From a virus, in IMG/VR virus record IMGVR_UViG_3300031140_000043, positions 1 to 24,149 of that record: DNA of 24,149 nucleotides; one strand, written 5' to 3'. A program made the position numbers and the translations under genes. The notes beneath the pieces were generated by a model. That model was given only the letters and a program-made list of their open reading frames with translations, searched no databases and was not told where the DNA came from. Below, piece by piece: positions 5,139-24,149 of the stretch. Position 1 is the stretch's first letter; each line of letters begins with the position of its first letter.

Positions 5139-6017
5139 ATGAAGAAAGCATTTATATATCAGTGGATTAACAAAATTAATAATAAGAAATATATTGGATC
5201 TCACATTGGAGTGCCTGAAGACAATTATACTGGCTCAGGCACTTACTTTAAGAACGCATATCTTAAAAATCCAGAATCATTCACTAGAGTTATTTTAGAA
5301 GTAATAGAAAGTGAAGACATACATTCGGAAATAAGAATTCTTGAAGAAAGTTATTTAAATAAAGTAGATGCTGCAAATAGCGTTGAATATTATAACATAA
5401 CTAATAGATACTACGGAGGAGATACTTATTCAGGACTTAGTACTGAAGACAAAGCAAAAATGATTAAAGGTTGGAGCGAATCTGGAAGATTAGACAGATT
5501 ACATAATCCACAGAAGTATATTGAATTAAAGAGAAAACAAAGTATCGCACAGAGAATTACAGGAAAGAATGTTTATCAATTTAGTAAAGATGGTTATTTG
5601 TTAAATGAGTATGATTGTTTAGAAGTAGCAGCAAATAAAACCAATACATCTAAAGGTAACTTACATAGTGCGCTGAATGAATCTAGAAATACCGCAGGAG
5701 GATTCCGATGGTCTTATAGTAAAAAACCTAATGATTTGATACCAGTTAAACCTAGGGTATATTCTAAAACAGGAAAACAAAAGAATCCAAGTGGAAAAAC
5801 AAATAAAATATTCACACAAGTATTACAATATGACTTAGAGAATAATTTATTAAGAACTTGGAATAGTAGAAACGAAATTGAAGAAGAATTAGGTATTAGC
5901 AAAGGTATGATTAACCATGCACTTAATAACAAAGTAAAGAAAACCGGAGAATATAAAGGTTTTATTTGGAAAAAAGGTAAACAAATCACAATTGTAGAAT
6001 ATAATAACAAATCTTAA
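5139..6017 (+). CDS. GIY-YIG homing endonuclease with NUMOD-type DNA-binding repeats
   Basis: This is a 292-residue free-standing homing endonuclease. The N-terminal GIY-YIG-type nuclease core is FIYQWINKINNKKYIGSHIG (residues 5-24), with YIGSH as the YIG motif and YQW as the variant GIY motif, followed by TGSGTYFKNA. Residues about 143-194 and 227-280 form two NUMOD1-like repeats, each with a V(Y/L)Q(F/Y) strand and a helix-turn-helix segment (NLHSALNESRNTAGGFRWSY; GISKGMINHALNNKVKKTGE), which in this class bind the target DNA. It stands 10 nt before the N-terminal DNA polymerase fragment. That placement suggests the polymerase locus is, or was, its target, and that it may have had a part in fragmenting the gene. 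It may have its own promoter at 5120. Confidence 0.85.
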   Translation: MKKAFIYQWINKINNKKYIGSHIGVPEDNYTGSGTYFKNAYLKNPESFTRVILEVIESEDIHSEIRILEESYLNKVDAANSVEYYNITNRYYGGDTYSGLSTEDKAKMIKGWSESGRLDRLHNPQKYIELKRKQSIAQRITGKNVYQFSKDGYLLNEYDCLEVAANKTNTSKGNLHSALNESRNTAGGFRWSYSKKPNDLIPVKPRVYSKTGKQKNPSGKTNKIFTQVLQYDLENNLLRTWNSRNEIEEELGISKGMINHALNNKVKKTGEYKGFIWKKGKQITIVEYNNKS

Positions 6018-6027
6018 AAATACATTA

Positions 6028-7425
6028 ATGATATTAGATATTGAGCAAAGAGACAAGGACGTAATTGTATCGTATTACGATAAAGAAGGAAAAGTTGCAT
6101 ATAAACAATATCCAATAGCACAATATCAGAATTGGTATATTTGTGGTGAAAAAGAAAAAGGAGTAAGTAAGGAATATACAAATTGGGATGGCCGCCCTGT
6201 TAAATTAGGATACGGTCGTCAATTTAATAAGTTTTCTCTTAATTACTTCATTGATGGTTTACCGGAAAAAGATCGTGAAGAGATCTTAGCATATAACTTG
6301 CCAAAGACATATTTCGTAGATATTGAAACAGAAATTGTTGATGGTTTTCCAAAAGCAGAAGAAGCGAAAACAAGAATCTTATCATTCTCAATTATTACAC
6401 CTGATCGTAAGGCAATCGTTTTAGGATTAGAAGATATGGCCCCTGATAAAATTCAAAAGATCGAAGATGATACTAACGAATATTTTAAAGACTTTGATCA
6501 AGATTGGGAATTTAAATACCATAAGTTCAAGAGCGAGTATGATATGGTTTATACTTTCTTAATGAAGTTCTTACCCAAGTTCCCTATGATGACTGGTTGG
6601 AATTTTATAAACTATGACTGGCAATATATCGTAAACAGAAGTAAAATATTACAGATAGATATTACTGAAGTTGGTATGACGGGGAAAGTTGATAGAAACG
6701 ACAGTAGACCTTTGCATATCGGAATCTTAGATTACATGCAACTGTATGACAAATACGATCGTAGTGTTAAAGTGAAAGAATCTAATTCACTCGATTACGT
6801 ATCAGGTCAAGTTTTAAATGTTAAAAAAATAAAGTATACTGGGGGATTACAAGATCTATACAGAGATAACTTTGTTAAATACATTTATTATAATGTAGTC
6901 GATTCAGTATTGGTATATTATATAGACCAGAAACTTAAATCAATGGAAGTTCTTTTAACATTGGCAAATATTACAAAGATGCCTCTTTATAAAGCAGCTT
7001 CGCCAGTGGCAGTTACAGAATCCCTAATGGCTAGGAAATTAGCAGAACAAGGAATGCGAATTGGAACTGAACAAAAGGAAGACTTTGAAAAAAGCACACA
7101 ATACGCAGGAGCTTATGTTAAAGAACCATTAGTTGGATATTATGAAGGAGTAACGGCATTTGATTTTGCTTCCCTATATCCTTCAATAATGAGACAATTT
7201 AATATATCACCAGATGCATATATTGAACAAGTTAAGAAACACGAAATAAAAGAGAGAAGAAAGGATAATGAAGTAATTGTATGTGATAATGGCGTTGTAT
7301 ATTCAAAAGAAGATTCTGTTCTTAAGAAAATACTTTCAGATTTATATAATCAACGTGTGGAATACAAAGATGAGTCATATAAATACTTTACTAAAGCTGA
7401 TAATCTCAAAAAAAGATTAAAATAA
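6028..7425 (+). CDS. 43A: family-B DNA polymerase, N-terminal fragment (gp43-like, exonuclease and palm motif A)
   Basis: These 465 residues match the first half of T4 gp43. The 3'-5' exonuclease is complete: Exo I DIE at 98-100, Exo II NFINYD at 192-197, and Exo III YNVVD at 288-292. The palm begins with QYAGAYV (359-365) and motif A DFASLYPSI (379-387). The frame then enters the fingers (ILSDLYNQRVEYKDE, 435-449) and stops after KKRLK, before motif B. Polymerase motifs B and C are encoded 3.6 kb away at 11048-12250. The two fragments sum to 865 residues, against 898 for T4 gp43, so little or nothing is missing. This fragment alone should have exonuclease but no polymerase activity. It follows the homing endonuclease by 10 nt and precedes nrdB by 9 nt. 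Confidence 0.95.
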   Translation: MILDIEQRDKDVIVSYYDKEGKVAYKQYPIAQYQNWYICGEKEKGVSKEYTNWDGRPVKLGYGRQFNKFSLNYFIDGLPEKDREEILAYNLPKTYFVDIETEIVDGFPKAEEAKTRILSFSIITPDRKAIVLGLEDMAPDKIQKIEDDTNEYFKDFDQDWEFKYHKFKSEYDMVYTFLMKFLPKFPMMTGWNFINYDWQYIVNRSKILQIDITEVGMTGKVDRNDSRPLHIGILDYMQLYDKYDRSVKVKESNSLDYVSGQVLNVKKIKYTGGLQDLYRDNFVKYIYYNVVDSVLVYYIDQKLKSMEVLLTLANITKMPLYKAASPVAVTESLMARKLAEQGMRIGTEQKEDFEKSTQYAGAYVKEPLVGYYEGVTAFDFASLYPSIMRQFNISPDAYIEQVKKHEIKERRKDNEVIVCDNGVVYSKEDSVLKKILSDLYNQRVEYKDESYKYFTKADNLKKRLK

Positions 7426-11047: not shown

Positions 11048-12250
11048 ATGACTGATATAGAACAATTAATAGAGAAACCAGAAAACGAACTTAGCGTTGA
11101 AGAAACGACAGTATTGATAGCACATTACGAACAGATGTCTGCTAAATATACTGCATATGAGCAAGCTGTCAAAGTAACGTTAAACTCGATTTATGGTGCA
11201 TTTGGAAATAAATGGTTTCATTTCTTTGATATAGAAATTGCAGAGTCAATTACCTTACAAGGTCAATCTGCTATTTTATATTCTGAAAAGATACTTAATA
11301 AGTATTTTCAAGAATTCTGGCCAAAGGATACTGCAGCTCACGAGCATTTTAATATTAAAGTAAAAGGAAGGTTAGTTAGACCATCAGTTGTTTATATTGA
11401 CACAGATTCATGTTATGTTCAGTTTGAAGAAATGTATGAATCTATTGAATGGTTAGGGCCAGACGAGCTTTCAATAGATAAATTCATTATGGAGTTGTAT
11501 AATTTTAGAATTAAAGATTATATATCAAAATGTATGCAGAAATATGCAGAAGTAACTAATACAGAAAACTTCTTATATTTTGATATGGAAACAATAGCAT
11601 ACTCTGGAATATGGTTAGCTAAGAAAAAATACTTGCAGAATATCGCGTGGGAAGATAAACTTGATATTGATGATAGATACCCTTCTCTTAAGAAGATTAA
11701 AACTATCGGATTCGATACGATACAGAGTTCTACACCGGCGCTTGCACGTAAGCATTTAACAGAGGCACTTCAATTAGTACTTTCTGAGAAACCAACAGCA
11801 GATCTTTTAAAGAAGCTTGTTGAATATCTTAAGAAATGTAAGAAGGAATTCAGACTTGCAGATATAGACCAAATTGCGTTTAACAAAAGAACGAACAACA
11901 TCGAGAAATATATTGTAGATGATACCATCGAATTCCAGATTGGACTTAAATGTCCTCCTAATGTAAGAGCTGCTGGATTCTACAATTTCTTAATGAATAC
12001 CAATCCTAAGTACAAGAACAAGTATAAGATGATAGGTAACGGAGAAAAGTTAAAACTATATAATTGTAAACATCATGTATCAGACATGTTCGCATATATG
12101 CCAGGTGATCACCCTTATGAGATTGCGCCTGAGGTTGATTATGAAATTCAATTTGAAAAAAGTGTAATCGATCCTTTGAATAGGGTATTAAAAGCTGTAG
12201 GTTTACAACTACTAAATAGAAACTTAATTTACTCAACATCATTATTTTAA
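11048..12250 (+). CDS. 43B: family-B DNA polymerase, C-terminal fragment (gp43-like, motifs B and C)
   Basis: These 400 residues supply what the fragment at 6028-7425 lacks: fingers motif B KVTLNSIYGAFGN (42-54), palm motif C VYIDTDS (115-121) with the catalytic aspartates, the downstream KKKY primer-binding motif (WLAKKKYLQ), and the thumb. The first 40 residues (MTDIEQLIEKPENELSVEET...) look like a helical continuation of the fingers rather than a foreign domain. The ATG has the A-rich context of a normal start (aataaataaaacATG), so this is a real separate gene. The C-terminus ends YSTSLF, in the position of the clamp-binding peptide of T4 gp43. It must assemble with the N-terminal fragment to form a polymerase. 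The clamp gene lies 7 nt upstream. Confidence 0.95.
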   Translation: MTDIEQLIEKPENELSVEETTVLIAHYEQMSAKYTAYEQAVKVTLNSIYGAFGNKWFHFFDIEIAESITLQGQSAILYSEKILNKYFQEFWPKDTAAHEHFNIKVKGRLVRPSVVYIDTDSCYVQFEEMYESIEWLGPDELSIDKFIMELYNFRIKDYISKCMQKYAEVTNTENFLYFDMETIAYSGIWLAKKKYLQNIAWEDKLDIDDRYPSLKKIKTIGFDTIQSSTPALARKHLTEALQLVLSEKPTADLLKKLVEYLKKCKKEFRLADIDQIAFNKRTNNIEKYIVDDTIEFQIGLKCPPNVRAAGFYNFLMNTNPKYKNKYKMIGNGEKLKLYNCKHHVSDMFAYMPGDHPYEIAPEVDYEIQFEKSVIDPLNRVLKAVGLQLLNRNLIYSTSLF

Positions 12251-19262: not shown

Positions 19263-20528
19263 ATGGCATCATACAATTTAAAATATAATAACGATGATAG
19301 CGTAATAAGACATGTTATTATTGGTCTATTGGCTGATTTAAATAACAAGGTTTATTTTCATCGACAAGCAACTGCAGATTCTAGAACGGTAATTGATGTT
19401 CCGTTTTATTATGCTATAACAGGGGATGATCAGTTTTTACGAGATAATTTCTTATTCAAAACAGCATCAGGTGCAGATTGCCATCCAGATATTGCATTTG
19501 CAGACGCAAACTATGATGTAGTTCCAAGAGGAGTTGTTAATTTAACAGGAATGTCAATAGACTCAGGAAAACTAGTTAATAAGCGTAATATGGGAACATA
19601 TACTAAAATGAATGCTGAAGGAGCTATGGAAGGCTATCAGGCAGAGTTTGAGATGGTTCCTATCACACTAAGTGTAGATGTTGAAATATTAGTTAGTTCT
19701 ACATTGGATGCATTCAAGATCACTGAAATGCTTATCAAGCGTTTGTATAAATCAAATTATTTTAACGTTGAAGTAGGTCATTTAGACGAGGCAACATATA
19801 GATTAAGTTCTTATTATTCAATGCCAGACGATTACGATGTACAAAAACCAATTGATTTCACATTTGATGATAAGGACAAATATAAGATAACATTTCCAAT
19901 AGAAATAAATACATTTATTCCATCATTTGAATGGGAAACTGAAACGCATGTTGGAAATAGAATGTATGAAATTAACACGAAAACAGTTTCAGCAAATGGA
20001 TCAGATAACAAGCAAAAAGAAACAGTTACTGTAAATTCTAACGGTGCAACATCGGTTCAATCAACATCATTAGATGACACTAATCCAAATGCAGGTGGAG
20101 CAAGTGATATCCCAAAACACACAGGATGTTTAGTACAATTACCAATTACCAGAAGTGCTGGAGATAATCCTGATCCTTCTGGACTTTTACACATGGTTAA
20201 TGTTACTTTATTAAACGGATCTTCCTTTACATTCGATGATAGGCTTTTAACAACACCACATGCTTTTGATAATTCAAATACAGTAGGTAGGATTGAAGCT
20301 CCGGGAACATTAGATGGTCTTGTAGGTTTTAATACAAAATCAATGTTAACAAACCCAACAGGTGATATTCAATTATATGAACCAAACTATGTATTTAGAA
20401 TCAATAAAATTCCTAAAGGTATTTATACACTAGATGGAACATACGTTAAAATGATAGGTATTTTAGATGCAGGTGGAAATACTATTCCATTTAATTCAAC
20501 AAATAGCCCTGGATCATTTTGTATTTAA
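19263..20528 (+). CDS. putative virion structural protein (tail/neck), 421 aa
   Basis: The first half has the pattern of a structural protein common in T4-like marine phages: SVIRHVIIGLLADLNNKVYF, then VDVPFYYAITGDDQF and a segment with EFEMVPITLSVDVEILVSS leading to a helix (FKITEMLIKRLYKS). In that family the middle part binds neighbours in the tail or baseplate. Residues about 240-290 are low-complexity and hydrophilic (Asn/Ser/Thr-rich, TVSANGSDNKQ...), and the C-terminal third is a separate beta-rich domain, perhaps exposed. I cannot assign a T4 gene number. The start has an A-rich context (caaaaatacaATGG). It is the first virion gene after the replication operon and precedes the candidate internal protein. 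Confidence 0.7.
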   Translation: MASYNLKYNNDDSVIRHVIIGLLADLNNKVYFHRQATADSRTVIDVPFYYAITGDDQFLRDNFLFKTASGADCHPDIAFADANYDVVPRGVVNLTGMSIDSGKLVNKRNMGTYTKMNAEGAMEGYQAEFEMVPITLSVDVEILVSSTLDAFKITEMLIKRLYKSNYFNVEVGHLDEATYRLSSYYSMPDDYDVQKPIDFTFDDKDKYKITFPIEINTFIPSFEWETETHVGNRMYEINTKTVSANGSDNKQKETVTVNSNGATSVQSTSLDDTNPNAGGASDIPKHTGCLVQLPITRSAGDNPDPSGLLHMVNVTLLNGSSFTFDDRLLTTPHAFDNSNTVGRIEAPGTLDGLVGFNTKSMLTNPTGDIQLYEPNYVFRINKIPKGIYTLDGTYVKMIGILDAGGNTIPFNSTNSPGSFCI

Positions 20529-20594
20529 ATAGAAAGAATCATTATTTTTCTAAGATATATAATAAAATAAAGAAAATAAAACAAATATAAAATT

Positions 20595-20882
20595 ATGAAA
20601 CACGTAAAATTATTCGAAGCATTTACTTCAACATTAAACGAAGGAAATTCATTCAAGAAAGAACTTAAAATTTTAAACAAGGAATATAACAAGGTGGATT
20701 CTGACGGTGAATCAATAACAGTATGGGATTTTCAAGAATCTGAAGACTATGCCGTAGTATTTACATGGGATGTTGAAGAAGAATCAGTAATTGGTGAAGA
20801 TCAAAAAAAGGCAAGATCTGACGAAGGAGAAGATATTAAAACTGCACAAGATTTTATCGACTTTATCGATGATCACATATAA
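20595..20882 (+). CDS. candidate internal (encapsidated) head protein with capsid-targeting peptide, 95 aa
   Basis: The N-terminus (MKHVKLFEAFTSTLNEGNS) resembles the capsid-targeting sequence of T4 internal proteins (MKTYQEFIAEA...). It has a short basic-amphipathic segment and ends in LNE-G (residues 14-17), which fits the T4 prohead protease consensus (L/I)-x-E followed by a small residue. Cleavage after E16 would leave a 79-residue acidic protein. The remainder (QESEDYAVVFTWDVEEESV) is acidic and beta-rich with no known fold. Its location among virion genes agrees. If correct it would be packed in the head and injected with the DNA, as T4 IPI, IPII and IPIII are. A plain hypothetical protein with a chance match is the alternative. 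A weak inverted repeat (TAGAAA...TTTCTA, about 20530-20552) and TATAAT (20558-20563) lie upstream. Confidence 0.6.
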   Translation: MKHVKLFEAFTSTLNEGNSFKKELKILNKEYNKVDSDGESITVWDFQESEDYAVVFTWDVEEESVIGEDQKKARSDEGEDIKTAQDFIDFIDDHI

Positions 20883-20908: not shown

Positions 20909-21661
20909 ATGAAGACTAATATTTTAGCACCTTTTGTAAAAACAGAAGAATCATTTAAATTTTACGTAAATGGTAGAGTTTTTGAAATGATCAATAATAC
21001 TATTACTGAAACTGAAAACGTAGATTCTACTTTAAAGAATGCAATTGCTGCATTTGAATCGTTTGAATTCGCAACATCAACAGTAAAATGGTTCCATGGA
21101 GCCTCTAAATTTACTTATAGCTTAACTGAAAATACATTCTCAATTGGAGATGTAGTTGTTGAAAACTTTACAGATCATGTATTATCTGCAGGATTAGTAA
21201 GATATGAAAACAAAGCAACTGCAGAGTTATTCGAATCTATTTCAACAATGGTAGAAAACTTTGTATCTTTAGATTTCGCAGCAACATTTGAAGGAAACGA
21301 CAATATTGTTAACTTATTTAAAATCGAAGAAAAAGTTTATGTTTCTAGATTTAACACAACAAACAGAATTGCAAAATTCTTTGAAGCTACTAACGCAAAT
21401 GCAGCAGTAGATTTCGTAACTGAACAAACAGGTTTATCAGCTGCTACTTTCTTAAATGAATTAGTAGATGGACAAGCTCTAGAAATTGCACAGAACGAAG
21501 CAAAGATAGTTTCTTATCAAGATATGATCGCATTCTTGAAAGATCAAAGAGGTTTATTAGCAGAGGCTGATAAGTCTGTTGAAGAAATCAAAGCCGCTGA
21601 TATTTTAATCAACGAAGAAATTTCTACTTGGGAAACTAAGATTGCTGATTTAAAAGCATAA
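20909..21661 (+). CDS. hypothetical protein, 250 aa, likely virion-associated
   Basis: Low in Cys and Pro, rich in Ala, Glu, Asn, Thr and Phe. Residues 1-150 alternate short strands and helices; the C-terminal 60 residues (AEADKSVEEIKAADILINEE...) form a coiled coil. No known motif. It is preceded by 26 nt of A-rich sequence and followed by a very strong terminator, suggesting a highly expressed end-of-unit gene. Position between structural genes and the late sigma gene makes a virion or head-scaffold role plausible, but this is inference. Confidence 0.6.
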   Translation: MKTNILAPFVKTEESFKFYVNGRVFEMINNTITETENVDSTLKNAIAAFESFEFATSTVKWFHGASKFTYSLTENTFSIGDVVVENFTDHVLSAGLVRYENKATAELFESISTMVENFVSLDFAATFEGNDNIVNLFKIEEKVYVSRFNTTNRIAKFFEATNANAAVDFVTEQTGLSAATFLNELVDGQALEIAQNEAKIVSYQDMIAFLKDQRGLLAEADKSVEEIKAADILINEEISTWETKIADLKA

Positions 21662-21777: not shown

Positions 21778-22152
21778 GTGGCTAGAAAAAAGAATTACCT
21801 AAACAATAAAGACCTCTATAACGAGATGGTACTTTCAAAGGATGCAGATAAGTTAACGAAAACAGCGGAGAAGATGTTAATATTGTTAGCAGAAAAAACT
21901 ATAAATAAAATGAGATATGTTAGTGAGGATGATCGTAATGACTGTCTTCAATTTGCAATGTTAGATCTTCTTAAATACTGGAGAAACTTCAATCCAAAAT
22001 ATCCAAATGCTTTTGCATACTTTACAGAGATTGCAAAACGTGGATATGCTAAAGGATGGAATAAAATACACCCTCAAAAATACAAAGGAACAATATCAAT
22101 TACTGGAAACGGTGGAGGTGATGGAGAACATTCAGGAATATACACATTATAA
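21778..22152 (+). CDS. 55: late-transcription sigma factor (gp55-like)
   Basis: 124 residues from a GTG start at 21778; the frame begins MARKKNYLNNKDLYNEMV, matching the NYVNNKELLQAI opening of T4 gp55. The core segment NPKYPNAFAYFTEIAKRGYAKGWNK (residues 79-103) corresponds to [21 protein letters not shown], the sigma region-2-like -10 recognition helix of T4 gp55. It should direct host RNA polymerase to late promoters. It is much shorter than T4 gp55 (185 aa): the tail after residue 105 is a glycine-rich GNGGGDGEHSGIYTL, without the clear acidic/hydrophobic clamp-binding peptide of T4. The terminator upstream shields it from the preceding unit. Its TAA directly abuts the gp4 start. Confidence 0.75.
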   Translation: MARKKNYLNNKDLYNEMVLSKDADKLTKTAEKMLILLAEKTINKMRYVSEDDRNDCLQFAMLDLLKYWRNFNPKYPNAFAYFTEIAKRGYAKGWNKIHPQKYKGTISITGNGGGDGEHSGIYTL

Positions 22153-22644
22153 ATGTCTATAAAGAATGTCAAACCAACAAAGAATTCTGGATTCAACCAA
22201 GGATATTATATCCCGGCCTTTCCTAAAAAATACATAGGTCCCACTCCAATAATATATAGGAGCTCATGGGAACGTAAATTCTGCGTATGGTGTGATAATA
22301 ATGACAAGGTATTGAATTGGTCAAGTGAGCCCCTAGAAATTAAGTATTGGTCTAGGCAAGATAATAAGGCACATAAGTATTATCCAGACTTTTATTTTAA
22401 GCAAATACAACCCGATGGTAATACATTAGAATATGTTGTAGAAATTAAACCAAAAGCACAGATAACTAAACCACAGCCTCCAAAGAATCCTTCTAAAAAA
22501 TCTATCCAGTCATATAAGTTCTTAGCGGAACAGTATGTTAAAAATATGGATAAATATAATGCAGCACTAGAGTTTTGCGAAGGAAGAGGTTATAAATTTA
22601 TTGTTTTAACTGAAGATACTATATTAAAGAATGGGTTACGTTAA
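22153..22644 (+). CDS. 4: head completion protein (gp4-like)
   Basis: 163 residues, T4 gp4 about 150. The N-terminal half is the conserved portion: FPKKYIGPTPIIYRSSWERKF (24-44), CDNNDKVLNWSSEPLEIKYWS (48-68), and the HKYYPDFYFK motif (75-84). The acidic/Lys residues of PDFY and VEIKPKAQ (94-101) give a PD-(D/E)xK-type pattern, so the fold is related to nucleases. In T4 gp4 is a minor head component needed to finish the head so that tails can attach. Starts immediately after gp55 and overlaps the next gene by 14 nt. Confidence 0.88.
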   Translation: MSIKNVKPTKNSGFNQGYYIPAFPKKYIGPTPIIYRSSWERKFCVWCDNNDKVLNWSSEPLEIKYWSRQDNKAHKYYPDFYFKQIQPDGNTLEYVVEIKPKAQITKPQPPKNPSKKSIQSYKFLAEQYVKNMDKYNAALEFCEGRGYKFIVLTEDTILKNGLR

Positions 22645-23215
22645 GAATAGAATAAAGGAATTAAGCAAAGAAGCGGGTAGCAAGTCAAAGGCTAGATCTG
22701 CATCTGAGAAATGGTTTAAGGAAAGTTCTAAATCTAGGTCATTAACAGAGGCTCAGCAGACTAGATCAAGGTTTGAACCAGGTAAAATATACGTGTTTGA
22801 TTATAAACCCATCACAAAAGATTTACCATGGTTTGATGCAAGCCCTCTAGTTCTAGCGTTAGAGCATAAAGGAGAAAATGACTTAGGTATTAATTTAAAC
22901 TTACTACCTAATAAAATTAAAGAGGAATTATTAGATACATTATATGATAGGATGAAAGGTCAAATCAAAAATGCAACCTCAGGTAAACGAGGAGAAAATG
23001 CATTAAGACAGGCTCCTTTAAGAATTACATACGAAGGCATGTCAGCTTACCTTAAAAGATATGGATATGATTTTGCAATCAGACAATATGTACCTAATAG
23101 AAAAATAAGACAAACAGTGGTTAGTTACACTAAATGGCCAGAAATTGCATTATGCGATTTTATAGAGCTACATGGTACGACGATAGCCCAAATTAGAAGA
23201 ATGTTTTTTAGCTAA
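22631..23215 (+). CDS. 2: DNA end protector-like protein (gp2-like)
   Basis: 194 residues. After a basic, serine- and lysine-rich N-terminus (1-47, with clusters such as SKSKARSASEKW) comes FEPGKIYVFDYKPITKDLPWFDASPLVLALE (48-78) and GINLNLLPNKIKEELLDTLYD (86-106), patterns I associate with gp2-type DNA end protectors of T4-like phages. In T4 gp2 binds the ends of packaged DNA and protects it from RecBCD-type nucleases. T4 itself has gp2 of 274 residues in the same gene neighbourhood (2, 4, 53), which supports the call. The protein is shorter here. A different baseplate or head protein is an alternative. Confidence 0.55.
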   Translation: MGYVKNRIKELSKEAGSKSKARSASEKWFKESSKSRSLTEAQQTRSRFEPGKIYVFDYKPITKDLPWFDASPLVLALEHKGENDLGINLNLLPNKIKEELLDTLYDRMKGQIKNATSGKRGENALRQAPLRITYEGMSAYLKRYGYDFAIRQYVPNRKIRQTVVSYTKWPEIALCDFIELHGTTIAQIRRMFFS

Positions 23216-23256: not shown

Positions 23257-24149
23257 ATGGCAGGATTCGTAGAGAGAAATGGCCCTTTAAGTTACAATAA
23301 GAAATCATTTAAACTAAAAGATCAGTTGAAAAAACTGTCTTCTTTTGGAATGTTTTATGATGATTTAGTACTTAGACAATCACAGGCAATTGGACCAGTA
23401 GAGGATAAAATAGGATTTGGTCAGATGAACCAAATGGGATTAGACTCTGATGATATGTATGGCGCATTCGCAGCATTATCAATGTCAGACACTAATATGC
23501 GTAAGAACATTCCGTTCTTCGATCAAGCATATGAGGGAAAACGTGAAGAACTAAGAGCGTTTTCAACGTATGACGAAATAGAAGACATCTTAGATATTCT
23601 TTGTGATGAATCTATTGTATATGATAACAAAAACTTTTTCGCAAATCCTGAAATTATAGGGATGGATGTTTCTGAAGACGTTACTAAATATCTTCAAAAA
23701 TCATTTAGAAATATTTACCAATATTTTGGTTTTACACAAGATCAATCAGCATGGTACTATTTTAGAAAATTCTTAGTTGATGGTTATTTATCATTTGAGA
23801 TTATATATAGCCCTGATCAAAGTGAGATTATTGGTTTTAAAGAAATTGATCCTATTACACTAGTTCCGGGATATAATAAAGAAGACAAAAAGAAAGTTTG
23901 GACTCAGTTTAAAGACGATCCAATTAAAGAAAGAGTCCTATATGATTCACAGATCATTTATATCTCTTATTCATCTATTACTACAGCATCTAGGGTAAGT
24001 TACTTAGAACGTCTTGTTCGTTCATTTAACTTAATGAGAATTATGGAACACACTAGAGTTATTTGGGCAGTTACAAATTCATCTTACAGAATGAAATTTA
24101 TTATCCCAGTCGGTGGTAAATCTAAAACTAGAGCAAAACAATCTCTTGC
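23257..24149 (+). CDS. 20: portal vertex protein (gp20-like), 3' truncated by window edge
   Basis: The ATG at 23257 opens a frame that is still open at the last base (297 full codons). The end of the visible part, VSYLERLVRSFNLMRIMEHTRVIW followed by YRMKFIIPVGGKSKTRAKQSL, matches the portal signature of T4 gp20 (VSYLEKAIKPLNQLRMLED...). Earlier, SWYYFRKFLVDGYLSFE-like text (residues 166-183; here AWYYFRKFLVDGYLSFEI) and EIDPITLVPGY are also portal-like. Portals form a 12-mer ring through which DNA is packaged and ejected and to which the neck attaches. A TATAAACA (23229-23236), one base off the T4 late promoter TATAAATA, lies about 21 nt upstream of the ATG. Confidence 0.88.
   Translation, partial: MAGFVERNGPLSYNKKSFKLKDQLKKLSSFGMFYDDLVLRQSQAIGPVEDKIGFGQMNQMGLDSDDMYGAFAALSMSDTNMRKNIPFFDQAYEGKREELRAFSTYDEIEDILDILCDESIVYDNKNFFANPEIIGMDVSEDVTKYLQKSFRNIYQYFGFTQDQSAWYYFRKFLVDGYLSFEIIYSPDQSEIIGFKEIDPITLVPGYNKEDKKKVWTQFKDDPIKERVLYDSQIIYISYSSITTASRVSYLERLVRSFNLMRIMEHTRVIWAVTNSSYRMKFIIPVGGKSKTRAKQSL

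Follow-up and report, generated by a model that had tools for sequence, protein, structure and literature searches.

A modular N-terminal leader with a predicted prohead-protease site on a 95-residue protein and on many unrelated proteins of uncultured T4-like phages

The principle by which T4 targets proteins into its head through a short N-terminal sequence (CTS) is known. As set out in PMC9026906, the first ten residues of internal protein IPIII are enough for packaging, with positions 4 and 7 important to targeting, the prohead protease gp21 cleaves after L/I-X-E, T4 leaders are 10–19 residues long, and IPIII mutants show head defects. The leaders read MKTFKEFTSTTTPVSTITE-A in IPI and MKTYQEFIAE-A in IPII and IPIII, the cut falling before the A. 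Each of the three proteins blocks one GmrSD enzyme, and the known ip genes of T-even genomes were found via the signal sequence (both points from PMC12373910); IPIII is required on strain ECOR17, according to PMC9391042. An N-terminal signal on a packaged protein is also described for DarB of phage P1, where it suffices to bring a reporter into the head, although according to PMC9024508 the Dar N-termini have no common consensus, unlike the leader described here.

The gene considered here lies in a 24,149-base fragment (the window) of the genome of an uncultured T4-like phage. It runs on the + strand from an ATG at 20595 to a stop codon at 20880–20882, and its 95-residue product begins MKHVKLFEAFTSTLNEGNSF; T4 ipI likewise has 95 codons and lies near genes 3, 2 and 4. 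The features of the region are as follows.

19263–20528, + strand: gp3-type tail sheath stabiliser, the upstream neighbour (phrog_227, E 4.2e-5)
20554–20562, + strand: GATATATAA, candidate late promoter at −41, the sole + strand copy in the window, found at the same place before the homologue in the relative G004
20595–20882, + strand: predicted precursor of an internal (head-packaged) protein, 95 aa, with 64% identical homologues and the whole gene on 4 contigs
20595–20642, + strand: 16-residue leader MKHVKLFEAFTSTLNE, predicted capsid-core targeting sequence, common to unrelated proteins
20634–20645, + strand: LNE-G, predicted S77 (gp21-type) cleavage site, cut after E16 (bond between 20642 and 20643); it fits L/I-X-E and the motif is enriched behind the leader
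20643–20879, + strand: predicted mature body, 79 aa, charge about −14, orphan family; helix, four strands, helix in a weak model
20909–21661, + strand: ORF without assigned function, with an ORF also following gp3 here in G004 (106516–107700)
21778–22152, + strand: gp55-type late sigma factor (phrog_234, E 4.7e-10)
22153–22644, + strand: gp4-type head closure protein (phrog_218, E 8e-45)
22631–23215, + strand: gp2-type DNA end protector (phrog_429, E 2.3e-23)
23258–24149, + strand: portal (gp20) gene, stopping at the window end; in relatives a leader-bearing gene in the gp67 position, an S77 protease-scaffold gene and gp23 come next

The original prediction, drawn from the letters of the window, had set this gene between virion genes; gp3 does lie on one side, but on the other the neighbour is the ORF of no assigned function. 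Its description of an N-terminus ending in LNE-G, the pattern of the T4 prohead protease, is correct, the ORF starting MKHVKLFEAFTSTLNE-G. The protein has homologues that are 64% identical across residues 1–94 on four near-identical contigs, the 150-kb G004 among them, and the DNA differences from the L002 homologue fall 22/13/40 by codon position over 94 codons; from this identity and this codon-position pattern we conclude that the ORF is a real gene. In named phage records the DNA surrounding the gene had no counterpart, the leader by itself drew nothing at E 10, and the 95-residue protein had chance matches only. Among open-licence PMC papers we found no published description of the leader, or of a CTS in Bacteroidota phages. 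The capsid protein of the group is nearest to that of a 462-kb metagenomic phage (51.5%), after which come the Lak phages of Prevotella at 37% and Tenacibaculum phages at 32.5%; given its nearness to the Lak/Prevotella and Tenacibaculum phages, a Bacteroidota host is likely. The Tenacibaculum phage PTm1, near by its major capsid protein, was considered as a cultured relative and ruled out, having no such leader.

Other window genes, named from their translations, include a split DNA polymerase, nrdB/nrdA-like genes, a clamp-like gene, a helicase and gp47/gp46. The family B polymerase is divided, on the same reading, between two genes (6028–7425 and 11048–12250); the roughly 3.6 kb that separates them holds ribonucleotide reductase and clamp-like genes, and a GIY-YIG-like ORF (5139–6017) stands directly before the first half. 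G004 has the same split order, at 91266–92684 and 97759–98967.

Searching IMG/VR for MKH[VI]KLFEAF in the first ten codons returned 56 stretches, which together with loci already collected gave 38 distinct proteins; one of these (20 aa, cut) was left out, and among the remaining 37, all of at least 40 residues, the bodies behind the leader fell into 26 clusters at E 1e-3. The DNA pattern of the leader, ATGAARNNNRTNAARNNNTWYRANNNNTWY, matched G004 11 times on one strand and 0 times on the other, and ten further relatives picked by capsid protein 45 times, always on the capsid-gene strand (not all of these matches are independent, because some of the ten contigs are close kin); the reversed-pattern control gave 0 in both sets. 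One of the ten, the S77-bearing G019, had no match to the pattern, nor did PTm1 and T4, the two named phages checked. Among ORFs, the leader core starts 12 of the 162 predicted in G004, vs. 3 of 846 internal methionines (which themselves resemble starts or fusions), and in G017 there are 15 leader ORFs and a further two that have in-frame methionines upstream, including a run of seven at 69,944–73,049; the leader expression used for these ORFs, and for the gp67-position genes below, was written after examples had been seen, so such N-terminal counts are descriptive, while the cleavage motif lay outside the expression. Tagged genes number up to about 15–17 per genome, far more than in T4, and the set of cargos differs greatly from genome to genome. 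The cargo genes also move, since homologues of the window gene, which itself sits after gp3, lie between nrdA and the clamp gene in G004, a site that holds cargo genes in G006 as well. The leader is, as far as sequence can tell, a module heading unrelated bodies. The original prediction had likened the N-terminus to the targeting peptides of T4 and suggested looking for more proteins with the same leader; that search was positive, with leader and cleavage motif heading many unrelated proteins in the relatives.

The resemblance to T4 internal proteins is one of design: a short N-terminal leader of the MK..F type, ending in LxE before A or G, on unrelated small bodies. The consensus differs, being MKH[VI]KLFEAF...[LIV]NE-A. 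The motif [LIVM][NST]E stood at residues 11–22 in 29 of the 37 leader proteins, as against 3 of 213 control windows (twelve residues each, further in, same proteins); since the search had fixed residues 1–10 only, this is an independent observation, with the proviso that leaders copied from one another are not independent cases. The G004 leader ORFs had [LIVM]xE[AGSK] at residues 10–25 in 10 of 12 cases vs. 7 of the 150 other ORFs (Fisher 4.6e-10). For G017 the figures were 10 of 15 vs. 15 of 185 with [LIVM][NST]E (3e-7), and only 7 of 15 vs. 21 of 185 with [LIVM]xE[AGSK] (0.0015). Throughout the window's group, taking in some contigs without a protease search, 50 of 66 leader proteins had the motif. 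Its consensus was mostly [LIV]-N-E before A (P2 was N in 41/50; P1' was A in 21/50 and G in 4/50), and the predicted cut fell after residue 13 in 36/50 and after residue 16, the window's case, in 6/50; predicted leader lengths in the group are within T4's range of 10–19 (range from PMC9026906). AlphaFold gave the leader region low confidence (pLDDT <50 at residues 1–17). We dropped the idea of an amphipathic helix, the hydrophobic moment of the leader being ordinary and 33% of G004 N-termini scoring higher.

A search for a gp21-like protease had also been proposed, and one was found. The window's own protease is out of sight because the contig ends within the portal gene; just past the portal gene of relatives lies an S77 protease, over the Pfam cut-off. 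In G004 the portal gene (phrog_213) is followed by the gp67-position ORF, which encodes 112 aa and bears a leader, then by a 686-aa protease chain and by gp23 (PF07068, E 9.8e-47). The chain starts with the S77 (gp21-type) protease (PF03420, E 1.9e-11; phrog_207, E 2.2e-34), to which a long acidic scaffold tail is fused. Like T4 gp21 (peptidase S77, PF03420), this protease adjoins portal and gp23; unlike gp21 it is fused to the scaffold in one chain, an arrangement also annotated in PTm1, and its cleavage specificity is predicted. The small protein between portal and protease recalls T4 gp67/gp68 and bears the same kind of leader, but is linked to gp67 by position and leader type only, with no family match. 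With both searches positive, we consider the original interpretation supported.

Capsid loci were compared in the best 80 of 565 IMG/VR stretches encoding relatives of the capsid protein. Within these, the gp67-position ORF, before the protease, was leader-like in 70 of the 78 loci with both genes, the other 8 reading FESFIK, and gp23 had KLYE and then D/E ahead of its mature part in 80/80. A loose expression found the ORF after gp23 leader-like in 53/72 of the same loci; several of the remaining 19 were near the leader (LYEQF, QEEF) and some plainly different. Two loci, L286 and L287 (G013, G028), gave a short gp23-like match with an in-frame TAA, which would reflect either an interrupted capsid gene or a different reading of TAA.

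Cleavage motif and protease went together: among distinct leader proteins, 30 of 48 had the motif where the contig has an S77 match, vs. 1 of 13 where it has none (P = 4.6e-4). This count leaves out G026 and G029, which nearly duplicate G024; G019 and PTm1, where the leader had no match; the S77-negative G031, which has leader matches in common with G024; and one of six G014 matches. The distant jumbo S77 contigs G024 and G027 have the leader mostly without the motif (1/4 and 2/8, together 3/12). Leader-type N-termini without LxE also occur on contigs lacking an S77 match (G011, G013, G025, G028, G030 and G033), so the role of the leader may be an older or a wider one. Four paralogues of about 510 aa (L086, L095, L101 and L106, in G011; also G028 and G030) start MK[YFH]IKL[FY]EAF, mostly without LxE, and on the contigs that carry them (G011, G028, G030) an S77 protease was not detected. 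The leader may predate its cleavage site.

Some cargos are joined in one chain. Residues 88–169 of q29 (L008:6403–6939) align with the window ORF, beginning at residue 4 of the latter (34%, E about 1e-6), and the joint is a decayed leader with an LNE-A site, FFESFTSTLNEA. The G006 protein q37 has the same first domain as q29 and a second that is homologous to another single-domain cargo, with the joint FFESYKSVNEA. These two-domain proteins, of G007 and G006, share domain A (82% over 101 residues) and differ in the second domain, and in both the alignment to single-domain proteins begins at leader residue 4. We also observed a leader-bearing cargo fused in frame, with no intervening stop, to an upstream ORF (L002:6333–7061, which is G004:95844–96572), at the same place in L003–L005. 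Its joint resembles an intergenic spacer followed by a leader, and the four near-identical contigs agree.

The body of the window protein had no match in Pfam, PHROGs, PADLOC (which covers defence, not counter-defence), PDB sequences, phage records or host genomes. AlphaFold had low confidence both in the body (mean pLDDT 62.7) and in the whole protein (56.9); Foldseek with the body model (pLDDT 62.7) gave nothing usable (best E 0.99), and no match to known inhibitors of GmrSD (type IV restriction) emerged from Pfam, PHROGs, PDB sequences or Foldseek with that low-confidence model. It is unrelated to IPI, IPII and IPIII (best blastp E 0.9 over 8 residues) and differs from them in charge, −14 as against +2 to +10 for the T4 mature parts. 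A DNA-mimic role was considered for so acidic a body (2.9% of 102 G004 ORFs are more so) and set aside because acidity does not mark the system as a whole, several further cargos being neutral or basic.

Most leader-bearing bodies match nothing. The exceptions include a GNAT acetyltransferase (G004 25007, PF13508, E 1.6e-7; weak in G017, E 0.002), an ATP-grasp (RimK-like) protein (G004 10600, phrog_2599, E 8.2e-9) and a nucleotidyltransferase with PGRFQPFHNGH (G017 71200, L232:17203–17796, PF01467, E 1.3e-7; a similar protein in G023). This last we take to resemble NMN adenylyltransferase; were it injected, NAD metabolism in the host or a defence based on NAD could be its target. All three fit roles in takeover, and PMC7824862 discusses GNAT domains in phage proteins that are injected.

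Upstream of the window gene, GATATATAA lies at −41, as it does before the G004 homologue; before the first gene of the G006 cargo array it lies at −31. It is strand-specific in the relatives: G004 has 23 copies, all on the coding strand (23/0), and G017 has 19, likewise all on one strand (0/19). It sits ahead of portal, sheath-like and tube-like genes (named by position and translation), and GATATATA is the most enriched upstream octamer of G004. The evidence for a promoter motif rests on these relatives, because the count in the window, 3 matches vs. 1.05 expected, is within chance. We take GATATATAA as a candidate late promoter of the phage group. A late promoter before every leader gene was ruled out, as it occurs within 90 bases of 0 of the 15 G017 leader genes.

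We judge it very probable that the 95-residue protein is the precursor of an internal head protein, targeted to the core, cut by the S77 protease after E16, packed and probably injected. What competes most seriously, though we consider it unlikely, is that the leader brings proteins into the prohead core for assembly or size control, in the manner of gp67/gp68 or of an assembly role of IPIII, and not as injected effectors. The great constancy of the leader on the gp67-position protein beside the protease (70/78, best 80 of 565 loci) speaks for this, as do the head defects of T4 IPIII mutants (PMC9026906) and a body so much more acidic than the basic T4 proteins. Against it, the cargo set varies greatly between genomes and changes sites, and several cargos are enzymes with no evident role in assembly (GNAT, ATP-grasp/RimK-like, nucleotidyltransferase). 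An altogether different destination (host membrane, phage assembly site, host RNA polymerase or protease) is improbable: leader-type N-termini without LxE on contigs without a detected S77 protease could be read this way, but in the window's group the leader accompanies an S77 site and is common to the gp67-position protein.

Another possibility, more improbable still, is that the common first codons are a DNA or RNA element, a translation start or recombination handle, encoding a functionless peptide. The leaders of the window gene and L002 differ at 3 of 48 bases, vs. 72 in the other 234, and even third positions are nearly identical; such near-identity of leader DNA in close relatives suggests copying as a DNA piece. 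Within a genome, though, leaders differ at about 2–3 synonymous codons of nine per pair (2.82 in G017, 2.47 in G023, 1.78 in G004), which is not a clean test since the pattern fixes part of the sequence; a decayed leader stands in frame inside two fused proteins, far from any start; and the LxE site a few residues on would be left unexplained. As for chance resemblance in one small ORF, neither an MK start nor the four residues LNE-G would count for much taken singly, but the tens of occurrences of the leader, against control counts of zero or close to it, contradict that reading and make its probability negligible.

On the reading we prefer, that of a packaged internal protein, the first ten or so residues (MKHVKLFEAF) would be the ticket into the prohead core, probably by binding the S77 protease-scaffold fusion and the gp67-position protein, of which the core would consist. 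Once the shell had assembled, the protease would cut after E16 (TLNE-GNSF) and release within the head an acidic body of 79 residues, which would ride in the virion, probably enter the next host with the DNA, and act before any phage gene is expressed. It might inhibit a host defence or serve another takeover role. Targeting and cleavage of the window protein we predict with considerable confidence, its injection with the DNA with rather less, and counter-defence is a tentative guess only, because the acidic body is an orphan. The sequences show a modular leader that stands before unrelated bodies, accompanies an LxE site and is common with the gp67-position protein, and they show a protease in the phage group; core binding, cleavage at E16–G17, retention and injection are what we would infer from these.

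New here, relative to the T4 principle, are another consensus, up to about 15–17 tagged genes per genome, arrays and fusions. We lean towards the view that widespread uncultured T4-like phages have a general cargo-loading system, in which one interchangeable tag, also present on the core protein beside the protease, would load some 12–17 proteins in the best-endowed genomes, some of them two-cargo chains with an internal tag that the protease could cut, as an early-effector kit delivered before phage genes are read. With the leader as a guide, genomes of a large uncultured group can be read for the proteins that probably travel with the DNA, and candidates for early takeover and counter-defence become directly testable. 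The tag could also serve to load foreign proteins into the heads of such phages.
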